NCBI GenBank assembly: GCA_944323405.1
Contig: CALUSJ010000008.1
Location: 1 to 35,060, forward strand
Reading direction: 5' to 3'
Source: Candidatus Gastranaerophilales bacterium
GTDB taxonomy: Bacteria; Cyanobacteriota; Vampirovibrionia; Gastranaerophilales; Gastranaerophilaceae
Length of the DNA: 35,060 bases
Positions 2,821 through 14,249 of the stretch are shown in pieces. The notes beneath the pieces are model-generated. The model saw only the letters and a program-made list of their open reading frames with translations. It had not been told where the DNA came from and did not search any database. The stretch's first letter is position 1, and each line of letters begins with the position of its first letter. Position numbers and translations under genes: made by a program.

Positions 2821-2847
2821 AAAAAAAAAGCTGCTATTAAAGCAGCT
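2821..2847 (-). terminator. Rho-independent terminator of the fimbrial operon
   Basis: On the minus strand a 7-bp stem AGCTGCT/AGCAGCT with a 5-nt loop is followed by nine T residues. It lies about 40 nt beyond the stop of the usher gene. The T run is on the minus-strand side only, so it serves the leftward operon rather than lepA. Confidence 0.8.
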
Positions 2848-2885: not shown

Positions 2886-5800
2886 TTATAGAGACAATGT
2901 TTTGTACTCTAAGTTTTGGTTTTTGACATCCGTCGGGTTTTGGTAGTCATACGGAATATAAATGCTTATCTCACTCTTATCCGGCAATTTTTCAAGCCCA
3001 TAAGCATCAATAAATTTTTCATCGAGTTTGAGGGTATATTTTCCCGGCGCAAGCCCTGAAATATAGAACTGGCCTGTTGAATCTACTGTCGAATAATTAA
3101 CCTCATTGCCTTCCATATCGAGAATTACTACAACAAAATCGGTAATCTTCAAATCACGTTCAAAATCATCCGAGATTCTAAGCACACCCGAAACTGAGCC
3201 TACAGTACTTGCAAGCGGAAGTTCCAGTTTTGTTGTAAGCCCTTTATCTATCTTGATTGTTTTAGAAATCAAATCGTTAGTAAGCGGCGCTACAGTAATA
3301 GGCAGAGAATCCATATCAAGCGCTACCGTGTAAACACCGCTTGAAAGAGTAGCAGATGCAACTCTTCCTGACCTGTTAGTATACTCTCGCTCGCTTGACC
3401 AACTGGTTATAAGCGGGATATCTTTAACCGGGATATCGAGTTTTTTATCGTATTTCCCGTTTTTATTAAGATCAATAAAAGCAATAGCTTCAAAAATACC
3501 CTTATCTTCATCATCATCCCCGACAGACTTAAACCCGTGATGGAATACTTGGAATGCATCATTAAAGATAAAGTTAATAGAATGCCTGCTTGTAGTCGGC
3601 ATAAACATATTATCTAAGAAATATCCACCGTTTTTTGAATACTGATATCCGAGAGTAATCATCTGGCCTGATTTTGCACGATAACCTATATTTACATTAA
3701 AATCATTACCGCCCTGGCCGTGGTACCTAAAGCCCCATCCCAATCCTAAAGTGAGACGTTTCCAAGTCGGGAATGTATAACCGAAACGAAACATATTGTA
3801 ATCATTCTTATAGCCGGATGCTTCATAATTAACAAAACTATGCCCGAATTGAATTTTACCTTTGTTATTAGGAATCGGAAGATGAAGCATCGCATAAGTA
3901 TCAGAATATTCAGAATTGTAGTTTCTATTAAGCGTATCAGGGCTGTCATATCTAGTATCATAAACGCTTTCACGTCTTCCGGCTTCTACTTTTGCCCATT
4001 TTTTGATATCACGTGAAACATTAAAATCATAGTAATAATTTTTGTTTCTGCCTAAATCGTTTTCGCCTCGCCTAAAGAAAGTATTAAATCTTACATTCGC
4101 AACTTTTGGAATTCTAGTCGAAGCACCTATATTTGCTTCATCAAAAACTATCGTGCCGCCTTTGTATCTATGATTCATATTAGAATAATACCGGCTGTAG
4201 CCGCCGTTTACGTTAGTTGAATTAAAACTTAAACCTGCTTGAACACGTCCTCCTGTGCGGTCATTTTTCGAAGTAGAATCAGAGCTCGCTATATAAAAAT
4301 CTGGAGAAGTATTAAAGAGCTCCACTCTTGTGTTAGCGCTTTTAGGTTTAAATATTTTCCATTTATACTTGGTCAAATCTTTAGAATATTCACCCGTACC
4401 TTTTACTATATAACCGGCATGAGTATTCTCTTCTCTGACATCATGTGCAACACTTACGCCTGCCGTACCACGAAGTTTAAGGTTCGGATCCTTAGGACTT
4501 ATGTATTCAATACTGTTTAGAGATGTTGCACCTTCTATATAGTTTACATTCTTTTGCGTACCTGATACAAGCAGTGTATCATTCGTCGGGATTCTATAAA
4601 AAACGCTTGTTCCGTTTTTATCATAAATCTTATCTCCAGTAAGTCTTGATTCAAAGGTTACGTTATCCTTTATACCGTATTGATAATCAACTCCGGCCGC
4701 TACCTTTTTGTTGTTCCCTCTATAGATATTAGAGCCTTCTCTAAAAAGCCTGTTTTGATAGCCCCAGACACCGGCAAATACAGACCCTCTCTGTTCTTTC
4801 TCAAAAGGCCTATCTCCATAGAGTGAATATTTTTCTTCTTTAACAAGTTCAATCGTCCCGTCTTCGTTAATCTCTTCTATCTTAATTTTTTCTATTTTTG
4901 CCGGAAGTACAACTTCATTAAGCGACCAGTATCCGGCATAAGTATTAACCGTAACAGGCTCATTATCATTAACCGTTACTCTTACAAGGCTTGTAGGTTT
5001 TACATATCCGTTAAGCTTATATGGAGGAGTTTTGTCATAATCGTAGTTCCAAATCTGAACACCAAAAATATTTGTACCGATTTGAGCGTCAATATCACTC
5101 CGGCCTTTTACTTTACCCAATTCGTAATAATACTTTTCTTTGCCGGTCTCTTTGTCTTTGATACTGTTCATATAAGTAGCTGTCAAACCGCCAAACATAA
5201 ACGCATCTTGACGATAATGAAACATATTCAATTCTGTTCTGTATTTTCCGCCAAAAGCGTTGCCGGAAAAACTTAGAGCTGTGTTTCCTGAGATAGTATC
5301 GTTTATATTATGATAATTAAGTCCTTTTGTAGACATATTATCGTTAATCATATTGTTATGAAGCCCGATTCTATTCAAAGAAATTATTCCGTTCTTTTTA
5401 GGCAAAACTACATCTGGATGAGCTTTTGGCCCTTTATCGTCAACAAGAGTATTTGCACTTGTATGAAGAATCGGTACATCTCGTCCGACTTCTGCACTTA
5501 TTGTAAGCGAAGAATAATCAGTAACAAGCTTTATCCCCATAATTTTTTCGGCAGTAGAAGCCTGGATAAAAGCTTCGTTCATTACATTATCCATAAGACC
5601 TTGTCTTAAAAATATCGGGGTTCTGCTCTGGGTAAGAAGATTGTTAATATAAACCCCTTTGTTATCTATTATACCGTTTTGACCGTCATAGGTTGTGAAG
5701 TTAATAATCTGGTTTACTCTATCAGCCGTATAATGAATATCAAATAAATCCGCAAGCTGCTTAAAAGGCACAAGTATCTCTGAACCCTCACCTATCATGA

Positions 5801-5930
5801 TTTCCACATCTTCATAAACCTTATCGTTAATTGTTATGTATGAAATTGTTGAATCACTTGCAAATGACGGCTGGCAGAGATATATGCCGGTTAAAACCGC
5901 TATAATTATGTATTTGATTCTATTTAACAT
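2886..5930 (-). CDS. Outer-membrane usher-like beta-barrel protein of a divergent chaperone-usher locus
   Basis: 1014 residues, with a signal peptide (basic MLNRIKY, hydrophobic core, ending PSFA-S at about residue 25). Residues ~30-150 resemble paired copper-amine-oxidase-N/stalk modules (ITINDKVYEDVEI, LVPFKQLADLF). Residues ~170-800 are rich in aromatic, alternating strands typical of an outer-membrane barrel, interrupted near 320-370 by a segment (VRVTVNDNEPVTVNTYAGYW) resembling the usher plug/E-set region. The C-terminus carries a calcium-loop-like DLNKNGKYD (residues 820-828) and two carboxypeptidase-regulatory-like Ig modules (GVYTVALD, GKYTLKLD). In known ushers such domains export chaperone-bound pilins. 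It is the last gene of the operon after a 103-nt gap and has no clear Shine-Dalgarno. The family assignment (TcfC/CfaC-like) is inferred from layout and context; a different secretion barrel is the alternative. Confidence 0.65.
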   Translation of the reverse strand: MLNRIKYIIIAVLTGIYLCQPSFASDSTISYITINDKVYEDVEIMIGEGSEILVPFKQLADLFDIHYTADRVNQIINFTTYDGQNGIIDNKGVYINNLLTQSRTPIFLRQGLMDNVMNEAFIQASTAEKIMGIKLVTDYSSLTISAEVGRDVPILHTSANTLVDDKGPKAHPDVVLPKKNGIISLNRIGLHNNMINDNMSTKGLNYHNINDTISGNTALSFSGNAFGGKYRTELNMFHYRQDAFMFGGLTATYMNSIKDKETGKEKYYYELGKVKGRSDIDAQIGTNIFGVQIWNYDYDKTPPYKLNGYVKPTSLVRVTVNDNEPVTVNTYAGYWSLNEVVLPAKIEKIKIEEINEDGTIELVKEEKYSLYGDRPFEKEQRGSVFAGVWGYQNRLFREGSNIYRGNNKKVAAGVDYQYGIKDNVTFESRLTGDKIYDKNGTSVFYRIPTNDTLLVSGTQKNVNYIEGATSLNSIEYISPKDPNLKLRGTAGVSVAHDVREENTHAGYIVKGTGEYSKDLTKYKWKIFKPKSANTRVELFNTSPDFYIASSDSTSKNDRTGGRVQAGLSFNSTNVNGGYSRYYSNMNHRYKGGTIVFDEANIGASTRIPKVANVRFNTFFRRGENDLGRNKNYYYDFNVSRDIKKWAKVEAGRRESVYDTRYDSPDTLNRNYNSEYSDTYAMLHLPIPNNKGKIQFGHSFVNYEASGYKNDYNMFRFGYTFPTWKRLTLGLGWGFRYHGQGGNDFNVNIGYRAKSGQMITLGYQYSKNGGYFLDNMFMPTTSRHSINFIFNDAFQVFHHGFKSVGDDDEDKGIFEAIAFIDLNKNGKYDKKLDIPVKDIPLITSWSSEREYTNRSGRVASATLSSGVYTVALDMDSLPITVAPLTNDLISKTIKIDKGLTTKLELPLASTVGSVSGVLRISDDFERDLKITDFVVVILDMEGNEVNYSTVDSTGQFYISGLAPGKYTLKLDEKFIDAYGLEKLPDKSEISIYIPYDYQNPTDVKNQNLEYKTLSL

Positions 5931-5990
5931 TCGTTATTTTTACTTTTTTGTTCGAAAGATAAACTTTCTACTGTTCCCTGTTTATTTTTA

Positions 5991-6014
5991 AAGCAAGTTT
6001 TCCTTAACCTGCTT
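5991..6014 (-). promoter_or_regulatory. Intercistronic hairpin between pilin genes and usher gene
   Basis: On the minus strand AAGCAGGTT and AACTTGCTT pair (9 bp including one G-U) around an AAGGAA loop, in the 103-nt gap between the second subunit gene and the usher gene. Only three T residues follow, so full termination is doubtful. Partial attenuation or mRNA processing that keeps usher output below pilin output would fit; this is inference. Confidence 0.45.
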
Positions 6015-6033
6015 GTTTTCTATTTAACAATTA

Positions 6034-6645
6034 TTATTTACTAACAGCCGTAAATGTAACCGTTGCTCGATAAGCACCGGCTTCATCCTGGCCGATTGAA
6101 TATGTATTATTTACAGGATTTTGCCCGATTGTTTGGCTTAATGTACCTTCCTGGCTATTATTAACTTTCACACTCCAGCACTCACCATATGTTGCGGAAC
6201 TCGTAAAATCAACGCTCATCGGGTTTGTAATACTCATCGTTACTGGATAAGCAATTACATTACTATTATTATTCCCGCCGGTTTTTGCATTCTCTATTGC
6301 CGATTTCGTTGGAAGCGATACTGTGTTTCCAAAAAGCAAACATCCGTTTTGACCATATGCAGAAACCTCCCCGTCTGTTGTTAATATTGTTGAGCCTACT
6401 ATGAAGTCATAATTCTCATCCGTACCGTTTGTTTGGATTTTGAAAGACGCATTTAATCCAGTATTTGTACCAGTTGTGGGATTTATTGATCCAGTTTCTT
6501 GTGATACGGTTTTAGAGATTGCTACGGAAGGTTGAACGTCCGTTGTTACGGACTGTTCAACTTCTGCGTAGCCATAGGCTTTTACTGTGCCAAAGAGCAC
6601 AGACATTATCAATATTAACGATTTTGTTAATTTATGATTTTTCAA
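6034..6645 (-). CDS. Candidate fimbrial subunit, secreted
   Basis: 203 residues with a signal peptide (MKNHKLTKSLILIMSVLFGTVKAYG). The start is TTG at 6645, preceded by AAGGTG four bases upstream. The mature chain is Ser/Thr/Asn-rich and beta-predicted, with two cysteines (NGC, GEC) that could form one disulfide. It ends in an alternating strand GAYRATVTFTAVSK, very like the end of the upstream protein (GQYQATLTMTETAI), as expected when the final strand packs against a chaperone or the next subunit. The mature N-terminus has an alternating segment (VTTDVQPSVAISKT) that could act as a donor strand. The gene lies 8 nt after its neighbour in the chaperone-usher operon. No specific pilin family is recognised; the role comes from context. 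Confidence 0.6.
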   Translation of the reverse strand: MKNHKLTKSLILIMSVLFGTVKAYGYAEVEQSVTTDVQPSVAISKTVSQETGSINPTTGTNTGLNASFKIQTNGTDENYDFIVGSTILTTDGEVSAYGQNGCLLFGNTVSLPTKSAIENAKTGGNNNSNVIAYPVTMSITNPMSVDFTSSATYGECWSVKVNNSQEGTLSQTIGQNPVNNTYSIGQDEAGAYRATVTFTAVSK

Positions 6646-6653
6646 GTTTCACC

Positions 6654-7313
6654 TTATATTGCGGTTTCTGTCATTGTTAATGTTGCCTGATACTGACCGT
6701 CTGTATCGTGGGTCGAGAATGTATTGGTGTCATTAGAGCCTGATACTGTACAAGTAAATGTTTCAATACCGTTGTTCATTGTGTATTTAACCTTGTTTGT
6801 ATCCCAAACAGCAGTCAAGCTTTCATCAGGCCCATCTTCTCTTGCCGAAGTAATTGTTAAATTAAATCCGATTGCATCCGGGTTATCTCCAGTTGCTGGA
6901 GAACCTCCTGTAATATTGGTTACAGAAGTTGACTGCGGCGGATTATCCGTCTTTGTAAACACCATTTTCAGATTCTTGCAATCTCCATCAGCACCATATA
7001 GGCACGGTGTATTGCTGCTGCCTGAAGTCGGGCAAGTTCCCTGGAGATAGAAATCCTGGGTTCTGTTGTTTGAAATAACCTTGAATACACCAGTCATTGC
7101 AGTATCAATTGTTGCAGAACTGTATTCTGTACCATATGATACCTCAGACGGTGATGGGTCTGTTGTGGTTGCTATTCTCAGATAGTCTGCCAGGTTTAGC
7201 GTATAAACTGCCGTATCTGAGCTTTGTGCATCAGCGCCGCCTGCTGCATATACACCTGCCGATGTACATAGCATGAGCGCTAAGGCAATTGGTAATAGTT
7301 TTTTGAATTTCAT
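6654..7313 (-). CDS. Candidate major fimbrial subunit, secreted
   Basis: 219 residues. The signal peptide MKFKKLLPIALALMLCTSAGVYA is clear, and a Shine-Dalgarno AGGAAGG precedes the ATG. The mature protein has four cysteines (GTC, TPC, GDC, FTC), enough for two disulfides, and is rich in Ser/Thr/Asp. The C-terminal strand GQYQATLTMTETAI alternates hydrophobic residues and matches the end of the next protein, so the two look like distant paralogues. It is the first gene after the chaperone, a usual place for a main pilin. Function is inferred from operon order, secretion signal and the terminal strand; no pilin Pfam family is evident by eye. Confidence 0.6.
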   Translation of the reverse strand: MKFKKLLPIALALMLCTSAGVYAAGGADAQSSDTAVYTLNLADYLRIATTTDPSPSEVSYGTEYSSATIDTAMTGVFKVISNNRTQDFYLQGTCPTSGSSNTPCLYGADGDCKNLKMVFTKTDNPPQSTSVTNITGGSPATGDNPDAIGFNLTITSAREDGPDESLTAVWDTNKVKYTMNNGIETFTCTVSGSNDTNTFSTHDTDGQYQATLTMTETAI

Positions 7314-7336
7314 TTTGGGGTACCTTCCTTTCTTTG

Positions 7337-8161
7337 TTAAACTTCATTTGTGATTTTTAATATTGCGTCTTTCTTTATATTTTTTCTGTTGCCATTTTCG
7401 TCAAAGTATGTGAATACAAGCCTTAAAGTATATTCTCCAGGGCCTTTTATATTCTTGGTCTCTATTTTTTGCCTTGCAACATAACTGTTGTTATCGCCTA
7501 CAACTTTTCCATCCAGTGGATATTCATCGATTAATTTTTTATCCTGTACTATCTGGAAAGTACCGTTGTAGCGGATTTTACTATTCCCAGTCGACAAAAT
7601 TTTCATCTCTGTATACAAGCCGTCCTTGCCTTTTACAATATTGAAATACTCAATATCAGCCTGCTTTTTGAAGTTTCCTTTATCAACATAAACAGGAATA
7701 CCAACTCGGGTTTTCAAAAGCAGCTGAGCGCCAATACCGCTGCCTCCTGAATAAGGAACGCTGAGTTCTTTTGCGTTAACGTCTTCTATATACAAAATAG
7801 CTCTTGACTCTCCATCAGGCAGTGTTTTTATATTAGCAATATTTACACGAACTTTTTGTGACTTGCCCGCAGGAATCGTGAATTCAGACGGAACAAATCT
7901 TACCTTGCCGGAAATATCGTGCGGATCAGAGGAGCTGTCAAGCATAATCATCTCCCCTTTATCCGAAATCTTGAAATAACCAGGATAAGCCCTGAAACGC
8001 ATGGGCTCATTCCCGCCTCTTATCTCAACAGCAGTTGTAAAATAATTATTCTTAACCTTGTTTGCGTTTATCTCTAATCTTGTCGGTGAAACAGTAATCG
8101 ATGCAAAAGCAGGGATTCCAATCAACAATGCAAACACTATACCTAACAGTTTCTTTTTCAT
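7337..8161 (-). CDS. PapD-like periplasmic fimbrial chaperone
   Basis: 274 residues with a signal peptide (MKKKLLGIVFALLIGIPAFA). The mature N-terminus SITVSPTRLEI matches the first strand of PapD-type chaperones, where the Arg (R28 here) anchors the subunit C-terminus. A later segment QLLLKTRVGIPVYV matches the G1 strand that donates to the pilin, with a basic residue at the second anchoring position. FVPSEFTIPAGKSQKVRVNI is typical of domain 1, and the second half forms another Ig-like domain. Such chaperones hold pilins folded in the periplasm and hand them to the usher. It sits 6 nt after the preceding gene and 23 nt before the first pilin gene. This is the best-supported member of the locus. 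Confidence 0.8.
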   Translation of the reverse strand: MKKKLLGIVFALLIGIPAFASITVSPTRLEINANKVKNNYFTTAVEIRGGNEPMRFRAYPGYFKISDKGEMIMLDSSSDPHDISGKVRFVPSEFTIPAGKSQKVRVNIANIKTLPDGESRAILYIEDVNAKELSVPYSGGSGIGAQLLLKTRVGIPVYVDKGNFKKQADIEYFNIVKGKDGLYTEMKILSTGNSKIRYNGTFQIVQDKKLIDEYPLDGKVVGDNNSYVARQKIETKNIKGPGEYTLRLVFTYFDENGNRKNIKKDAILKITNEV

Positions 8162-8167
8162 ACCGGC

Positions 8168-9031
8168 TTAATAAACCTCTCCTTCCCTTAATATGTACTT
8201 TACACGGTTTTGATAATTTCCTGCTGGAATTATTTTTCCACTCGGATTTTCAACCGAAAATTCCACTGAAACAAACTCATTTTCAGCAGGAGCTTTTCCT
8301 CTTGCGAGAATAATTTCTTTTCCCGGCGTAATAAGAGCATTTTCCTGAAGCCTATTCGTTACACCGCCAGAAGCTGATACTGTCCTTACATAATAAGTAC
8401 CGGCCGCATCTTCAAAATCAGTTGTATCTATAGATAATATCCAATCAGTATTAGAGCGGATATAAATCATAGGCGCAGATTCAGCAGGAGTTTTGGAATT
8501 CTTTCTGAATACATCAGAACCGCTTAAGTTTATCCTCGGTGATTCTGAATAAGTATTCAATTCGTGGACTACAGGCACTATAAATTGCAGATTGAATGTA
8601 GTCATAGAAACAATTTCACCGCTCTCTGCATCAGTTGCCTGAACTTCAAACATGATATTGTAAACTCCCGACGGCACAATACCATAGTTTTTAATCTTTG
8701 CGGTCATATTCTTTGCAACACCGCCCATATTTAATCCGTAAAAAATATTGGAGTACTCATTATATTTGAGATAAACGTCTTCTTTCGTATTATTAATAAA
8801 CAGATACTCTAAAGGTATCGAAACAGTTCCCTCAGAATTAGTTACAGCCTCCTGCAAAGGCCTCACCGCTATATTATAATCCCCTCCATCATCACTGTTT
8901 ACTATCAGGTTTCTCTCTATATTATTAGAGGTCACAATCGTATCACCCTGATAATCTATCATTATCATAGTTGCATGTACAGGCAAAATTGTTACAAGCG
9001 CAAATAGCACCATTAGCATAAGTTTTTTCAT
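8168..9031 (-). CDS. Secreted beta-rich protein, first gene of fimbrial operon (possible tip subunit or accessory chaperone)
   Basis: 287 residues from ATG 9031. I prefer this to an earlier in-frame start because it opens with a good signal peptide (MKKLMLMVLFALVTILPVHA) and lies 40 nt after a -10 box. Residues ~22-155 look like one beta domain (NLIVNSDDGGDYNIAVRP, SGVYNIMFEVQ), and ~175-287 like a second that ends AGNYQNRVKYILREGEVY, comparable to the closing strands of the two pilin candidates. Two domains plus first position suggest either a tip adhesin (lectin plus pilin domain) or a second chaperone-like factor. No family is recognised, and which role applies cannot be decided from sequence alone. 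Confidence 0.55.
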   Translation of the reverse strand: MKKLMLMVLFALVTILPVHATMIMIDYQGDTIVTSNNIERNLIVNSDDGGDYNIAVRPLQEAVTNSEGTVSIPLEYLFINNTKEDVYLKYNEYSNIFYGLNMGGVAKNMTAKIKNYGIVPSGVYNIMFEVQATDAESGEIVSMTTFNLQFIVPVVHELNTYSESPRINLSGSDVFRKNSKTPAESAPMIYIRSNTDWILSIDTTDFEDAAGTYYVRTVSASGGVTNRLQENALITPGKEIILARGKAPAENEFVSVEFSVENPSGKIIPAGNYQNRVKYILREGEVY

Positions 9032-9071: not shown

Positions 9072-9099
9072 ATTGTAACAATTTGTAACAAAAGTTCAA
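9072..9099 (-). promoter_or_regulatory. Promoter of the fimbrial operon
   Basis: On the minus strand TTGAAC (9094-9099), a 16-nt spacer and TACAAT (9072-9077), with an extended TG one base before the -10. The start point would fall near 9065, giving a leader of about 35 nt before ATG 9031. Confidence 0.6.
9073..9091. promoter_or_regulatory. Tandem TTGTAACAA boxes, candidate operator
   Basis: Two exact copies of the near-palindrome TTGTAACAA (9073-9081 and 9083-9091) have centres exactly 10 bp apart, one helical turn. They cover the spacer and -10 of the fimbrial promoter. The same 9-mer (TTGTWACAA) occurs just inside the first gene (8989-8997), at 18620-18628 before the acidic-protein gene and at 26838-26846 before a hypothetical gene. 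Position over the promoter suggests repression; the protein that binds is unknown. Confidence 0.45.
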
Positions 9100-9206
9100 T
9101 AAATATTTGAATAAAATCAATTATTTGTAGTATATACTTGCAAATAATTCATTTATCAGGAGGAATTTTATCTTCTTGAATCTGCAAAAACCCTTCCCGC
9201 TTAAGC

Positions 9207-9235
9207 TTTACAAAATTTTACAATTAGTGTATATT
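9207..9235 (+). promoter_or_regulatory. Promoter of the GGDEF gene
   Basis: TTTACA (9207-9212), a 17-nt spacer and TATATT (9230-9235). Transcription would start near 9242, just before the Shine-Dalgarno AGAGGAAG (9245-9252) of ATG 9257. This supports 9257 over the upstream TTG at 9176. Confidence 0.5.
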
Positions 9236-9256
9236 ATAAGAATAAGAGGAAGATTT

Positions 9257-10129
9257 ATGAGCAATATTATTATTTATTCAACAAAACCAATGCCGGAATT
9301 ACAGGCCAAGCTGATGGAAATTGATGAAGCAGAAGTAAAAACTGTTTCTATAGATCAAATGAAAGATTATGCATTAAATAATCCGTCATTAATGATAGTT
9401 GAAAATATTGATTTAGCAAAAGATGCATTAATGACACATAAATTCCCTTGTCCGATATTATTTTTCGGGCCAACCAGAAAAGATGTAACAGTAAGAGCAG
9501 AAGGATATGATTTTATTAAAGATCCTTCCAATGCTGATGAATTAATCATAAGAGTTAATACGCTTTTAAGAATTAAGATGCTTAAAGATAAGCTTGAAAG
9601 AGTTTCTACAACAGATGATTTAACTGGGCTTCATAACAGAAAATACCTTCAAGAGAGACTTGAAGAAGAGATTTCACGCTCTAAACGATACGGCACAAAG
9701 CTCTCCTGCATATTATTCGATATAGATTTCTTCAAAGTTGTAAATGATATGTACGGATATGAATGGGGAGATATTCTGCTCAAAAATATCGCAAACAAGC
9801 TAAAAGCTATGGTAAGAAAAGAAGATATCTTAACCCGTTACGGCGACGAAGAGTTTTTGCTTGTGCTGCCTAACACTTCTGAAGAAAACGCCTTTTTGTT
9901 TGGCGAAAGATTCAGACGTGAGATTGAGAAAATGGAATTTATTCCGGCTGGAGAAGAAGAAGCTCACAAAGTCACTATTTCCGGCGGAATTTCTACCTAT
10001 CCTTGCATGAGTGATGTCGATGAAGACGCAAACACTGTAATTAGATATGCAGAGCACGCTCTATATAATGCTAAACACAGAGGCAAGAATAAGATTATAC
10101 AATTCTCTCAAATGAATCTAGAAATGTAA
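9257..10129 (+). CDS. GGDEF-domain protein with degenerate receiver domain (putative diguanylate cyclase)
   Basis: 290 residues. Residues ~1-105 look like a response-regulator receiver fold: alternating strands, and FIKD with the conserved Lys at 88. The strand that normally ends in the phospho-acceptor Asp reads SLMIVEN, with Glu49 there. Residues ~118-288 form a GGDEF domain beginning TTDDLTGLHNRKY. Its active-site loop reads RYGDEEF (GDEEF at 196-200), so the second Gly is Asp. The inhibitory-site RxxD is present (R187-D190), five residues before the loop. Family role: making cyclic di-GMP from two GTP, often controlling adhesion. It is divergent from the fimbrial operon, 225 nt away, which suggests but does not prove a link. 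Activity is uncertain because of the loop change. Confidence 0.85.
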   Translation: MSNIIIYSTKPMPELQAKLMEIDEAEVKTVSIDQMKDYALNNPSLMIVENIDLAKDALMTHKFPCPILFFGPTRKDVTVRAEGYDFIKDPSNADELIIRVNTLLRIKMLKDKLERVSTTDDLTGLHNRKYLQERLEEEISRSKRYGTKLSCILFDIDFFKVVNDMYGYEWGDILLKNIANKLKAMVRKEDILTRYGDEEFLLVLPNTSEENAFLFGERFRREIEKMEFIPAGEEEAHKVTISGGISTYPCMSDVDEDANTVIRYAEHALYNAKHRGKNKIIQFSQMNLEM

Positions 10130-10134
10130 AATAC

Positions 10135-13100
10135 CTATTCTTCTTTGGTATTACTAAATTTGAACAGATTCTTTAGTTCTTCAGCACTATTTTTGAGCTG
10201 TTCTTTTGTTGCATTCCACTGTTCTTTTGAATTATTTACAGCGTCAGTAACACTCTTGACTGTATTGTTCCAATCTTCATCAACAGCCTGCTTAATAGTT
10301 TCTACGGTTTCTTTTACGGATTTTGTTTCTATCGCACTCGTATCAACATCCGTAAGCCATTTGAATGACTTAACAGAACTTGTACTTTCCAATCCTCCGT
10401 TAAACAATACTTTAAAATCCTTATAACTTGTACTACCGCTTGTTAAAGCAGGGATAGAATCAATTTTTTCACCTTTAGGATTTTGGGTCATCGCCTTAAC
10501 AATACCGGCTGTTAAATTACCAAATTTTGGAATATAACCAAGCAGTTTATCTGCCGACAATTCTCCCAATGGCCCAAGCTTTGCAACAATTGTACTCTCA
10601 AGCCGGCCAAGAATTGTTACATTTGTTGTACCGTTTAAAAGATTATATTTGCCTTCTACAAAATAAGCAAGATATTTTCCAGAACTCTTGATTTCTTTTA
10701 TATTTGCCCAGCCGTCTTTAAAACTCAGCTTACCGTCAATATAATCAAACTTAGCCGTATCAGCAAATCCTGCACTGCTTGTAATCGTGGAAACGGTTGT
10801 TTTAAGCACATTATTGGTTATTATATTACTTGCATTAAGCATTTTATCCAAACGCCCTATAGAGCCGAAAGCACCGTTTTTGACACTAAAGCTTACATCA
10901 CCGCTCAATGATTTCATCATTTCATTATAATCAGCTGCAACCAAATCAAGTTTTGCATCAAAACCAAGCGTGCCTGATATAGCATTCTTTATACCTACAG
11001 CGCCTTGTACGGCTTTTGCTGCATCCATATTTGCACCGATAAAATCAACTGTAGTCTTTGCATCGATAAGATTATATTTTATATTTCCAGCAATAGTTCC
11101 CAAAAATGCAGAACCCTTAAGGCTTGTAAGATAAAAATCATTTCCTTTGAGCTCAAAATCACTTGTTAAATTCTCTGCTTCTATACCGCCGGATTTGAAT
11201 TTTGCAAGCGAAGCGCTGCCATCCAAGATTTTACCATCAAGATTTATATTAAGATTATCCATCACAACAGGGATTTCTGGGATATTGAGATTTGGAACCT
11301 GAACTTTTCCTTTCAGAATAGGATTCAACATGCTGCCGGATATCAGTATATTCCCGGTAAAAGACATTTTCGATTTGTCAAACATAGGTATAATGATTGT
11401 CGAAAGTTCGTTTGTATAATACGTAAGATTCAAGGTTTGGGTTCTTACGTTGATATCTCCAGAAAGAGCCGATTTAATATCCCCTGTCGTCAAGAAATTC
11501 AGCCCGATTTTTTCGGTCAAATAATTCTGAATTTTCCCTGAGATTATTGTATTAATTCTCTCTATCTGAACGGGGGTTTGTGTAATAATTATTTCGTTTT
11601 CTTTTATATCAGCACTGAGCTTGGGGATAGAAACTGAAGCTGCTGGATTAATAAGTTTAATATCAGAGCTGACGGCTTTTCCTGAGAAAGTTTTCCCATC
11701 AGAGGTTATATCCACAATAGTTTGCGGAAGTTTTAACACCGTATTTGAAGGAACATTTTTTAAATCAATATTATCAATGCTCAGTTTAACAACTGGATTA
11801 ATCTTATCAAGCCTGCCTGTAACATTTGCATCCATAGAAACAAGCCCGGAATTTATATTATTATCTTTCAATAAAACACTCTGACCAGCTGCTATAATTA
11901 ATCCTTTTAGATTTAGTTTGTCTGCCGTAAGATGCAGATTACAAACCGCATTTTTATCAATCGTTCCAAAGAACTTAAGCGGATGACCTAGGACAGAAAA
12001 CCCGATATTTTTTATATTTACGTTGTTATTGTTGAGTTCAGTATCTGCATTAATATTATCAATTCCTATTTTGTAAAGCCCATAGTAAACATTTGCAGAA
12101 GGTATTTTCAAATATCCGCTTGATTCAACCGTTTTCATATCAGACTTTATATTAAAATCCGCATCAATCTTACCATTAGCACTAAGTGTCTGTAAATCTT
12201 TTATGTCAAAAATCAATGCGATATCTTTTACAATCTTCAAAATATTTGCAAGCTCAGCTTTTGATTCCAGGTTCAAATCAATTTTCGGATTTCTGCCCGT
12301 TTTTACAAAACCATCTATCTTAGAGAGTTCATTCTTTGCTGTATAAAGCTCTGAAAGAATGTTTATTTTTTCACCCTTAAATTCAAGATTTATATTGCTT
12401 GGCGGCAAATCAACCATAGACAGATTAGAAACCAGAGCCTTACCTTCAATTCCTTTGTGCGAAATTGTTAAATCAGCGTCTGCTGCTGCCGTAAGCTTGG
12501 TTTTATAAAGCCCCTTTAAAATCTCCGTTATATTAATTTGAGCTTGCTCATCTTTTTTATTTTCTTCATTCTGAGGATTTGTTACCAATTCGTTAAGCTC
12601 AATATCCGGCATGATTTTATTCAATACAGAAACATTGTATTTAAACTGCTCTCTACCTTTAAATACAGCATTACCAATCGCTTTCACCCGAACGCTTTTA
12701 TTAAGTATAAAATCCGTAATTTCTGTTTCTTCACCACTTATGACGTATTTATCGGAACCGTTTATAAACGTAATGCTATATTTGCCGGATTTTATATCCG
12801 GGAGATGGTTAGAAAGCCTCAACCCTAATGGGAGCGCAAAAGGTTTGGATTCTACATTTTTTAATTCAGTTGTTTCATTATTTTCTTCTGATGACGGGAA
12901 AAATTTCATCACATCAAAGCTCCCGTCATTATTTATTTTTAAGTCTATATCTGCATTTTCTAACTGGACAAGATCTATTTCTATTTTCCTTGCAAGAAGC
13001 GGGATTAATGACATTTTAACCTGAAAATTATCAGCATTAAAAATCTGTTCATTATTAGAAGGAGTATAAAGGGCAAAATTCTTAACCTTAAGCCCTGCCG

Positions 13101-13302
13101 TAAGTTTTGGAGTGGTTACAACCCTGACCCCTTCAAGCTTTGCATTAAGCCCTGATGCTTTAAAGATTTCTCCTGTTATTTGCGGAGTATATCCTTCAAT
13201 AATCGGATTAAGAATCAGCGGAGAAATTAGAAATAATACATAAGTTCCTATAGCCGCACCTGCACACCCGATTAAAACACGCATTAAGCTTTTTTTGTTC
13301 AT
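10135..13302 (-). CDS. AsmA-family inner-membrane-anchored protein
   Basis: 1055 residues from ATG 13302, chosen because AAGGAGG lies four bases upstream; an earlier TTG at 13323 would precede that site. An N-terminal membrane segment (residues ~6-28, VLIGCAGAAIGTYVLFLISPLIL) is followed by a very long periplasmic part of repeated short beta strands, with AsmA-like features near both ends: 'GLNAKLEGVRV...' early, and late 'GDVSFSVKNGAFGSIGRLDKML' with 'DYIDGKLSFKDGWANIKEI'. A short Gln/Lys/Glu helix region closes the protein. AsmA-like proteins (AsmA, TamB, YhdP) are thought to bridge lipids between inner and outer membranes or aid outer-membrane assembly. It lies directly after the MCE protein gene, which supports a lipid-transport role. 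Confidence 0.8.
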   Translation of the reverse strand: MNKKSLMRVLIGCAGAAIGTYVLFLISPLILNPIIEGYTPQITGEIFKASGLNAKLEGVRVVTTPKLTAGLKVKNFALYTPSNNEQIFNADNFQVKMSLIPLLARKIEIDLVQLENADIDLKINNDGSFDVMKFFPSSEENNETTELKNVESKPFALPLGLRLSNHLPDIKSGKYSITFINGSDKYVISGEETEITDFILNKSVRVKAIGNAVFKGREQFKYNVSVLNKIMPDIELNELVTNPQNEENKKDEQAQINITEILKGLYKTKLTAAADADLTISHKGIEGKALVSNLSMVDLPPSNINLEFKGEKINILSELYTAKNELSKIDGFVKTGRNPKIDLNLESKAELANILKIVKDIALIFDIKDLQTLSANGKIDADFNIKSDMKTVESSGYLKIPSANVYYGLYKIGIDNINADTELNNNNVNIKNIGFSVLGHPLKFFGTIDKNAVCNLHLTADKLNLKGLIIAAGQSVLLKDNNINSGLVSMDANVTGRLDKINPVVKLSIDNIDLKNVPSNTVLKLPQTIVDITSDGKTFSGKAVSSDIKLINPAASVSIPKLSADIKENEIIITQTPVQIERINTIISGKIQNYLTEKIGLNFLTTGDIKSALSGDINVRTQTLNLTYYTNELSTIIIPMFDKSKMSFTGNILISGSMLNPILKGKVQVPNLNIPEIPVVMDNLNINLDGKILDGSASLAKFKSGGIEAENLTSDFELKGNDFYLTSLKGSAFLGTIAGNIKYNLIDAKTTVDFIGANMDAAKAVQGAVGIKNAISGTLGFDAKLDLVAADYNEMMKSLSGDVSFSVKNGAFGSIGRLDKMLNASNIITNNVLKTTVSTITSSAGFADTAKFDYIDGKLSFKDGWANIKEIKSSGKYLAYFVEGKYNLLNGTTNVTILGRLESTIVAKLGPLGELSADKLLGYIPKFGNLTAGIVKAMTQNPKGEKIDSIPALTSGSTSYKDFKVLFNGGLESTSSVKSFKWLTDVDTSAIETKSVKETVETIKQAVDEDWNNTVKSVTDAVNNSKEQWNATKEQLKNSAEELKNLFKFSNTKEE

Positions 13303-13322
13303 AACCCCTCCTTGTTTCTTCA

Positions 13323-13351
13323 ATTATATTAAAAATTAGGAGAATTGTGAA
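13323..13351 (-). promoter_or_regulatory. Promoter of the AsmA-family gene
   Basis: On the minus strand TTCACA (13346-13351), a 17-nt spacer and TATAAT (13323-13328). It lies wholly in the 68-nt gap after the MCE gene, so the AsmA-family gene can be transcribed separately from its upstream neighbour. Confidence 0.55.
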
Positions 13352-13370
13352 GGGTGGGGAGAGCTAGTGA

Positions 13371-14249
13371 CTAATCCCCCATCGGTCTCCCCAAAATAAG
13401 CCGCATGCCGGCAAACCTTTTAGAAAGAGTCACCTTAAACCCTTTTACTATATCGTTTATATTCAATACCATATTATTAACATTTTTAATCAGGCAATTC
13501 AAAAGTGTCACGGTTTCACTATCGGCACGTTTGGTCAAAAACGCTGTATTAGAAGTCGTTAGCTGCAAGTTTTTCGTTATAAGTTCTATATTTGCAAATG
13601 TATTATCCAGTCTTTTAGGCTTTGCCGAGCGGTTAAGCTCACGTGAAATATTCGCCAAATTATCGGTAGCAACGGTAAGATTCCTTGTCGTCAGCACCAT
13701 ATTTTCGCCGGATTCCTTAAGAGAAGGTCTTAAGTCGATTAAAATACTATTTGCCGTATGAAACAAATCCGTCAGGGCATCCATCGTTTGTCCTGCTGAC
13801 TCTACTGTGCCGCTCAAATTTTCAGTTAAATCATCCAAATTTCCCGAATCTGCCTGGTCTTGGAAAAATGCTGCAAAACTAACCCCTTTTTCACCTTTGA
13901 TTTTAGACTTATTTTTCAAATACGTTACCGAAGGCATATCTGGATAAATCAACTCGATATAGTCCCGCTTGTTTTTTGTCTTAACCTTAGCCGTAATATT
14001 ATCCGGCAGAGAAAAATCATCCATGCGCAAAACCATATCAACATAAGTTTTAGTAAAATCTTTAGAAGGATAAACCCTTGTTGAGCGCCCAAGCCTAAAC
14101 CCTTTGTAATAAACATTAATATTATGCGGAAAAGGCTCTAATTCATCAAATACAGCACTTACATGCAAATGATTAAGACGGTAAATGCCGTACCAAACAA
14201 CTGCTGCGGCTAATATTACACTCAAAAATATTATCCAAAATTTATTCAT
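13371..14249 (-). CDS. MCE (MlaD-like) domain protein
   Basis: 292 residues. One N-terminal membrane segment (residues ~3-24) is followed by an MCE domain (~30-115: VSAVFDELEPFPHNINVYYKGFRLGRS, then VDMVLRMDDFSLPDNITAKV and DYIELIYP). A long helical tail (~135-275) contains regularly spaced Leu/Asn/Thr. MCE proteins form hexameric rings or tubes that carry lipids across the periplasm with MlaE/MlaF-type ABC transporters. No MlaE permease, MlaF ATPase or MlaC gene adjoins it; its downstream neighbour is the AsmA-family gene. No Shine-Dalgarno is visible before the ATG. Confidence 0.8.
   Translation of the reverse strand: MNKFWIIFLSVILAAAVVWYGIYRLNHLHVSAVFDELEPFPHNINVYYKGFRLGRSTRVYPSKDFTKTYVDMVLRMDDFSLPDNITAKVKTKNKRDYIELIYPDMPSVTYLKNKSKIKGEKGVSFAAFFQDQADSGNLDDLTENLSGTVESAGQTMDALTDLFHTANSILIDLRPSLKESGENMVLTTRNLTVATDNLANISRELNRSAKPKRLDNTFANIELITKNLQLTTSNTAFLTKRADSETVTLLNCLIKNVNNMVLNINDIVKGFKVTLSKRFAGMRLILGRPMGD

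Follow-up and report, generated by a model that had tools for sequence, protein, structure and literature searches.

A predicted chaperone-usher pilus locus of a divergent, non-classical type in a Candidatus Gastranaerophilales genome

The DNA analyzed here, referred to as the window, is a stretch of 35,060 nucleotides (contig C8) from a Candidatus Gastranaerophilales genome of 1.76 Mb that is 80% complete. Positions 2886–9031 hold five minus-strand genes in the order A–chaperone–S1–S2–usher, which we propose to encode a chaperone-usher pilus; the products are labeled A, C (chaperone), S1 and S2 (subunits) and U (usher). Chaperone-usher pili are hair-like protein structures by which cells usually attach to surfaces, and nearly all work on them concerns Proteobacteria. 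Gastranaerophilales are gut bacteria, common and for the most part uncultured, and to our knowledge their means of surface attachment has not been described. Searches of the open-licence literature brought up no description of a chaperone-usher, usher, fimbriae or pili system for Gastranaerophilales or Melainabacteria. The features of the locus are:

8168–9031, minus strand: A, a secreted 287-residue protein encoded by the first gene of the operon, in the same place in both Gastranaerophilaceae operon types
7337–8161, minus strand: predicted periplasmic PapD-like chaperone of the non-classical type, 274 residues, assigned by profile match and residues P91/R120
6654–7313, minus strand: S1, predicted pilin-like subunit, 219 residues, with an N-terminal donor-strand motif; paralog of S2, with hydrophobic alternation and the C-terminal motif
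6034–6645, minus strand: S2, predicted pilin-like subunit, 203 residues, assigned by an AlphaFold2 model with Foldseek and VIA-align matches
2886–5930, minus strand: predicted outer-membrane usher, 1014 residues, with N-terminal domain, barrel, plug (~308–380) and C-terminal domains, assigned by a superfamily profile
2829–2847, minus strand: terminator hairpin 3' of the usher gene on the side of the convergent lepA, with a 7-bp stem and an 8-T tail

A preliminary description of this DNA had proposed a leftward operon of five genes, all encoding signal peptides, bracketed by one promoter and one terminator. Five minus-strand open reading frames (ORFs) are indeed present, with intergenic gaps of 6, 23, 8 and 103 nt, and signal peptides were read by inspection at all five N-termini. 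The start of A was placed at the ATG at 9031, where the signal peptide begins; the longer ORF with a TTG start, which reaches 9091, is for this reason less probable. A survey of gene order, also suggested in the preliminary description, showed the A–chaperone–S1–S2–usher order to be identical in the loci of other, related species. The terminator was recovered as an inverted repeat of the rho-independent type (AGCTGC..GCAGCT followed by T8, 2847–2829) between the usher gene and lepA. The promoter was not: a 9/12 promoter-like site that includes a TG element is present at 9099–9072, and the region contains 27 such sites compared with 23.1 ± 4.5 in shuffled sequences, so that by site counts the operon upstream region holds no promoter above chance level.

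Searches of Pfam and NCBIfam gave no usher, chaperone or pilin match above the cut-off for any of the five proteins. PapD_N was matched weakly in 6 of 9 chaperone homologs (best E 0.0066), and CarboxypepD_reg/SdrD_B-like matches were found near the C-terminal end of U. Usher domains of the CooC_C/TcfC type had no Pfam match in the Gastranaerophilaceae ushers, and weak CooC_C matches were confined to the cyanobacterial relatives (E 3e-4 and 0.08). PDB searches with single sequences and with family profiles returned nothing real, and a plasmid search with a cyanobacterial usher returned carboxypeptidase-regulatory-like domains only.

Among 292 genomes surveyed from the phylum, 26 from Gastranaerophilaceae contained relatives of U, and two cyanobacteria gave weak matches. 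The cyanobacteria-related host proposed in the preliminary description was confirmed, the relatives belonging to 'Candidatus Gastranaerophilales' and 'Cyanobacteria bacterium SIG28' metagenome-assembled genomes (MAGs) and to other gut and rumen MAGs. The two weak cyanobacterial matches belong to loci (L049, L050) that hold usher-like, chaperone-like and small secreted proteins. The cyanobacterial usher-like family CU1 was matched in 37 of the 60 genomes of its cyanobacterial family, and a second family, CU2, was found at ~25% identity. Both (L049, L050, L064–L093) are widespread in Cyanobacteria, have chaperones encoded adjacently and are missed by PF00577, the Pfam usher model. Ushers scoring above the PF00577 cut-off occur in 7 of the same 60 genomes, one of them also matching many NCBIfam usher models; these PF00577-positive, archaic-type ushers served as the reference ushers below.

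The profile of the Gastranaerophilaceae ushers matched CU2 at 96.7%, with residues 125–963 aligned to 141–866. After pooling with CU2, it matched the reference ushers over the whole length (98.9%), and after pooling with both CU1 and CU2 the match rose to 99.5% (E 3.3e-23), with U residues 25–1002 aligned. As controls, FimD matched the reference at 97.0%, and reversed profiles gave 0.4% and 2.7%. The segment of U from residue 308 (GYVKPTSLVRVTVNDNEPVTVNTYAGYWSLNEVVLPAK), which we take to be the plug from the order of domains in known ushers, lies in register with the reference plug (GAALTPSKVEVFVNGQRVNQTEVPPGRFQFDNLLLPTG), and the C-terminal GQFYISGLAPGKYTLKL aligns with the reference GDFYLDSVSPGKYPANV. 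These alignments support the identification, made earlier from the letters alone, of the 1014-residue protein as a putative outer-membrane usher homologous to known ushers, plug region included.

The chaperone family profile matched chaperones encoded in the reference usher loci at 97.5% (E 5.7e-12), against 0.1% for the reversed profile; it matched EcpB at 57% (E 1e-4) and did not match FimC (1.1%). Non-classical chaperones are marked by two residues, a proline equivalent to EcpB Pro60 and an arginine equivalent to EcpB Arg89, the latter binding the C-terminus of the subunit; they have nothing corresponding to the classical Arg/Lys pair (PMC4654587). In the present family, P91 occupies the position of Pro60, a proline invariant throughout the chaperone-usher superfamily, in 47 of 47 aligned sequences, and R120 the EcpB/CsuC Arg89 position on strand F1 in 45 of 47, including 20 of 20 from Gastranaerophilaceae; R197 aligns with EcpB Arg148 of the second domain (42/47). 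R28, an N-terminal arginine placed by eye as a member of the cleft pair Arg20/Lys139 of Caf1M, varies within the family, and the lysine has no reliable FimC alignment. In a tree of the chaperones, where long branches call for caution, all Gastranaerophilaceae sequences fell in one group (100/99) beside CU2 (94/86). The profile match and the signature residues support the 274-residue protein as a probable periplasmic PapD-like chaperone of the non-classical type, the PapD-like character having been recognized in the preliminary description.

S1 and S2 are paralogous (profile E 9e-72), as had been noted earlier from their matching C-terminal strands, and a C-terminal D..G.Y.A strand motif is common to the subunit family. 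An AlphaFold2 model of S2, built with 27 paralogous sequences, had a mean predicted local distance difference test (pLDDT) score of 86.7, with values >90 from about residue 40 onward; the first 40 residues make no strand with the body. Foldseek on AlphaFold models had been among the checks proposed, and the S2 model, searched against the PDB, brought chaperone-usher pilins to the top: the first five matches were to CfaB, the CFA/I pilin (E 1.6e-4 to 4.3e-4), and the sixth to the CS17 pilus. The corresponding TM-scores were low (0.33–0.39 by query length), so the likeness to CfaB and CS17 is a match of fold and not of close structure. VIA-align matched S2 to SafD (Z 7.3, root-mean-square deviation 3.6, 119 residues) and further to CfaE, Caf1, DraD, AggA, MyfA, CupE and CsuE. 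Across 25 family members, the N-terminal extension alternates between hydrophobic and polar positions, with mean hydropathies of +2.5, +2.3, +3.5, +3.2 and +4.4 at columns 55, 57, 59, 63 and 65; windows of this kind are also found at other places in these beta-rich proteins (columns 91–97), so the alternation supports a donor strand and does not prove one. The model and the alignments support S2 having the known immunoglobulin (Ig)-like pilin fold, and S1 and S2 being predicted pilin-like subunits with an N-terminal donor-strand extension.

The product of gene A had no match in Pfam, NCBIfam or the PDB. Over its whole length it resembled the chaperone family weakly (40.6%, E 3e-4), and profiles of half-proteins did not support A being chaperone-like or having a pilin-type C-terminal domain. 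A may be a tip or accessory subunit, or a chaperone-like protein.

The usher, chaperone and pilin readings each have separate support. Taking these results together, we consider it very probable that the locus encodes a non-classical chaperone-usher pilus of the archaic or alternative type, on a divergent branch. Several results weigh against this reading. PF00577 had zero matches in the whole genome, and none in 10 usher homologs up to E 1. The Gastranaerophilaceae ushers alone matched the reference ushers at the C-terminal end only (88.9%, E 2.4e-6), so that full-length homology to PF00577 ushers runs through the cyanobacterial intermediates. AlphaFold2 modeling of the usher with 10 close homologs reached a pLDDT of 39 and was not used for a fold search; the barrel assignment consequently draws on sequence profiles. 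The column of the tyrosine that helps to anchor the subunit end in EcpB (Tyr169) fails to align in the chaperone. Integrin and other Ig-like domains fall in the same VIA-align range as the pilins (Z 6–7 for integrin), which makes the Z score of S2 alone not decisive. No conserved cysteine column was found in 62 subunits (best column 20/62, 11 without any cysteine), and the pair of archaic pilins is absent; that pair is invariant in the archaic pilin domain (PMC4654587, PMC10104325). By sequence, S1 and S2 matched none of the known pilins, and their profiles gave nothing against cyanobacterial, EcpA and FimA pilins. The earlier view that the subunits lie outside the described pilin families thus holds by sequence and fails by fold, which is a known one. 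Neither of the two outcomes that the preliminary description named as refuting its reading was encountered, the evidence for the usher barrel being that of the sequence profiles.

The lack of a Pfam usher match and of a usable barrel model would also agree with some other outer-membrane secretion or export device, in which a non-usher barrel exports two Ig-like proteins and the PapD-like protein is a general periplasmic chaperone; the C-terminal CarboxypepD_reg/SdrD_B-like domains are likewise common in unrelated secreted proteins. Against such a device stand the profile match to PF00577-positive ushers, which covers nearly the full length and has the plug in register, the signature residues of non-classical chaperones, and the combination of pilin fold and donor-strand motif, and we regard it as very unlikely.

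By analogy with known systems, we infer assembly, the formation and form of a fiber, an adhesive function, a host target and the role of A along the following putative lines. S1, S2 and possibly A would arrive in the periplasm as subunits with an incomplete Ig-like fold. The chaperone would lend a strand of its first domain to each subunit and grip the subunit C-terminus via the conserved arginine. The 1014-residue usher in the outer membrane would then take up the chaperone–subunit complexes, its plug swinging aside. Subunits would be joined by donor-strand exchange, with the alternating hydrophobic N-terminal extension of each occupying the groove of the one that follows; the fiber would emerge on the cell surface. 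A genuine chaperone-usher system whose subunits form a capsule-like coat, as with Caf1, or a structural surface layer would follow the same course until the last step. Such an outcome would suit the presence of two or three similar subunits, among which an adhesin was not found, and the appearance of Caf1 among the structural neighbors of S2; the nearest Foldseek matches are nevertheless the pilus-forming CfaB and CS17, and A could be a tip protein, so that we judge a coat unlikely.

The proposed pilus was compared with known chaperone-usher systems. With archaic (sigma) pili, such as Csu of Acinetobacter baumannii, CupE of Pseudomonas aeruginosa and the cyanobacterial PF00577 loci, it shares an usher homologous along its length, a homologous chaperone that keeps the diagnostic proline and arginine, an Ig-like pilin fold and a multi-subunit operon. 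Unlike these, the Gastranaerophilaceae usher lies outside PF00577 and is ~150–200 residues longer than the cyanobacterial PF00577 ushers, the subunits have no invariant cysteine pair and do not resemble archaic pilins in sequence, and the conserved gene A is extra. Among alternative (alpha) pili, CFA/I (CfaA–CfaB–CfaC–CfaE) provides, with the CS17 pilin, the best Foldseek matches of S2, while ECP (EcpA–D) has in EcpB the proline, the arginine and the G1 strand shared by the present chaperone; the Gastranaerophilaceae subunits are like those of alternative pili in having no conserved cysteines. In contrast, neither the subunits and EcpA nor the usher and EcpC (17%) match significantly in sequence; profile comparison to single FimD or EcpC sequences is powerless, FimD against EcpC itself giving 0.4%. 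CU1 and CU2 are the nearest relatives of the Gastranaerophilaceae usher and chaperone and likewise escape PF00577, but this kinship is detected by profile only, and the small proteins neighboring CU1 do not match S1 or S2. Because the subunits and the usher family differ from the archaic type, and the sequences from the alternative type, we filed the locus under neither.

The same genome contains a second, paralogous A–chaperone–S1–S2–usher operon, intact, on contig C27 (L047, 2997–10097). It is flanked by a divergent pair of genes for secreted proteins of 159 and 248 residues, which recurs in relatives and has no Pfam match in either member. A third pilin-like subunit gene, S3, a further copy beside the paralogs S1 and S2, lies elsewhere in the genome (contig C76, L048 3457–6794). 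The preliminary description had called the locus complete: its five genes are intact, but completeness is less certain, as no tip adhesin was recognized, A being a candidate, and S3 is located elsewhere. Immediately downstream of S3 come an Omp85/BamA-like gene (Omp85 E 1.5e-40) and a gene resembling OmpH/Skp, and this S3–Omp85–Skp group (also in L001, L004, L005 and L010) adjoins the pilus operon in several relatives. The 748-residue neighbor of S3 was considered as a tip adhesin and rejected, being the Omp85/POTRA protein itself.

Across 239 Gastranaerophilaceae genomes, usher sequence was present in 41, the chaperone in 31 and subunits in 31. Subunits were found in 29 of the 31 chaperone-bearing genomes, and usher sequence in all 31 subunit-bearing genomes; the pairwise overlaps had hypergeometric p values of 7e-28 to 1e-32, uncorrected for the relatedness of the genomes. 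This co-occurrence, like the shared gene order, adds to the evidence that the genes form one chaperone-usher system. In nine genomes neither chaperone nor subunits accompany the usher sequence, which is mostly fragmentary, so the system is patchy and often lost. Many Gastranaerophilaceae genomes (for example G020, G402, G204, G148 and G423) keep usher fragments or stop-interrupted copies only. The fragmentary and stop-interrupted ushers point to repeated loss.

With usher sequence in only 41 of the 239 genomes, and a good part of it in fragments or bearing stops, the locus might itself be a decaying relic of little function in this organism. We find this hardly credible, given that the five genes of the window are all intact, that the genome retains another intact operon, and that related species retain 65–87% identity among usher homologs together with invariant chaperone signature residues.

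A broader proposal, that the Gastranaerophilaceae ushers and the two cyanobacterial families form a fourth, deeply separate class, with the subunits, which have no conserved cysteines, as a new pilin family and assembly tied to Omp85/Skp through the co-located third subunit gene, is offered tentatively, as a possibility on the doubtful side. Because archaic chaperone-usher systems are already on record for Cyanobacteria (PMC4654587, PMC10104325), such genes are less surprising in a lineage that had initially seemed unusual for them. A pilus missed by curated models is a concrete candidate for attachment in Gastranaerophilales, and suggests that chaperone-usher systems are under-counted outside Proteobacteria. 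The sequences may also help to place the split between archaic and alternative types in the evolution of the pathway.

The operon is flanked by the convergent lepA, read by inspection, and by a divergent diguanylate cyclase (GGDEF) gene at 9176–10129 of the window (E 6.6e-44). Control by cyclic di-GMP is not claimed, as the GGDEF gene is not kept beside the operon in relatives. The 103-nt gap between S2 and the usher gene (5931–6033) contains hairpins and folds better than shuffled sequences (z −2.6); in this operon type, relatives included, the gap measures 103–284 nt. An attenuator is not claimed there, neither the sequence nor the length of the gap being conserved among relatives. Further along, positions 10135–14249 encode a DUF748/AsmA-like protein of 1062 residues followed by an MCE-like-looking protein of 292 residues, which probably function in envelope lipid transport.

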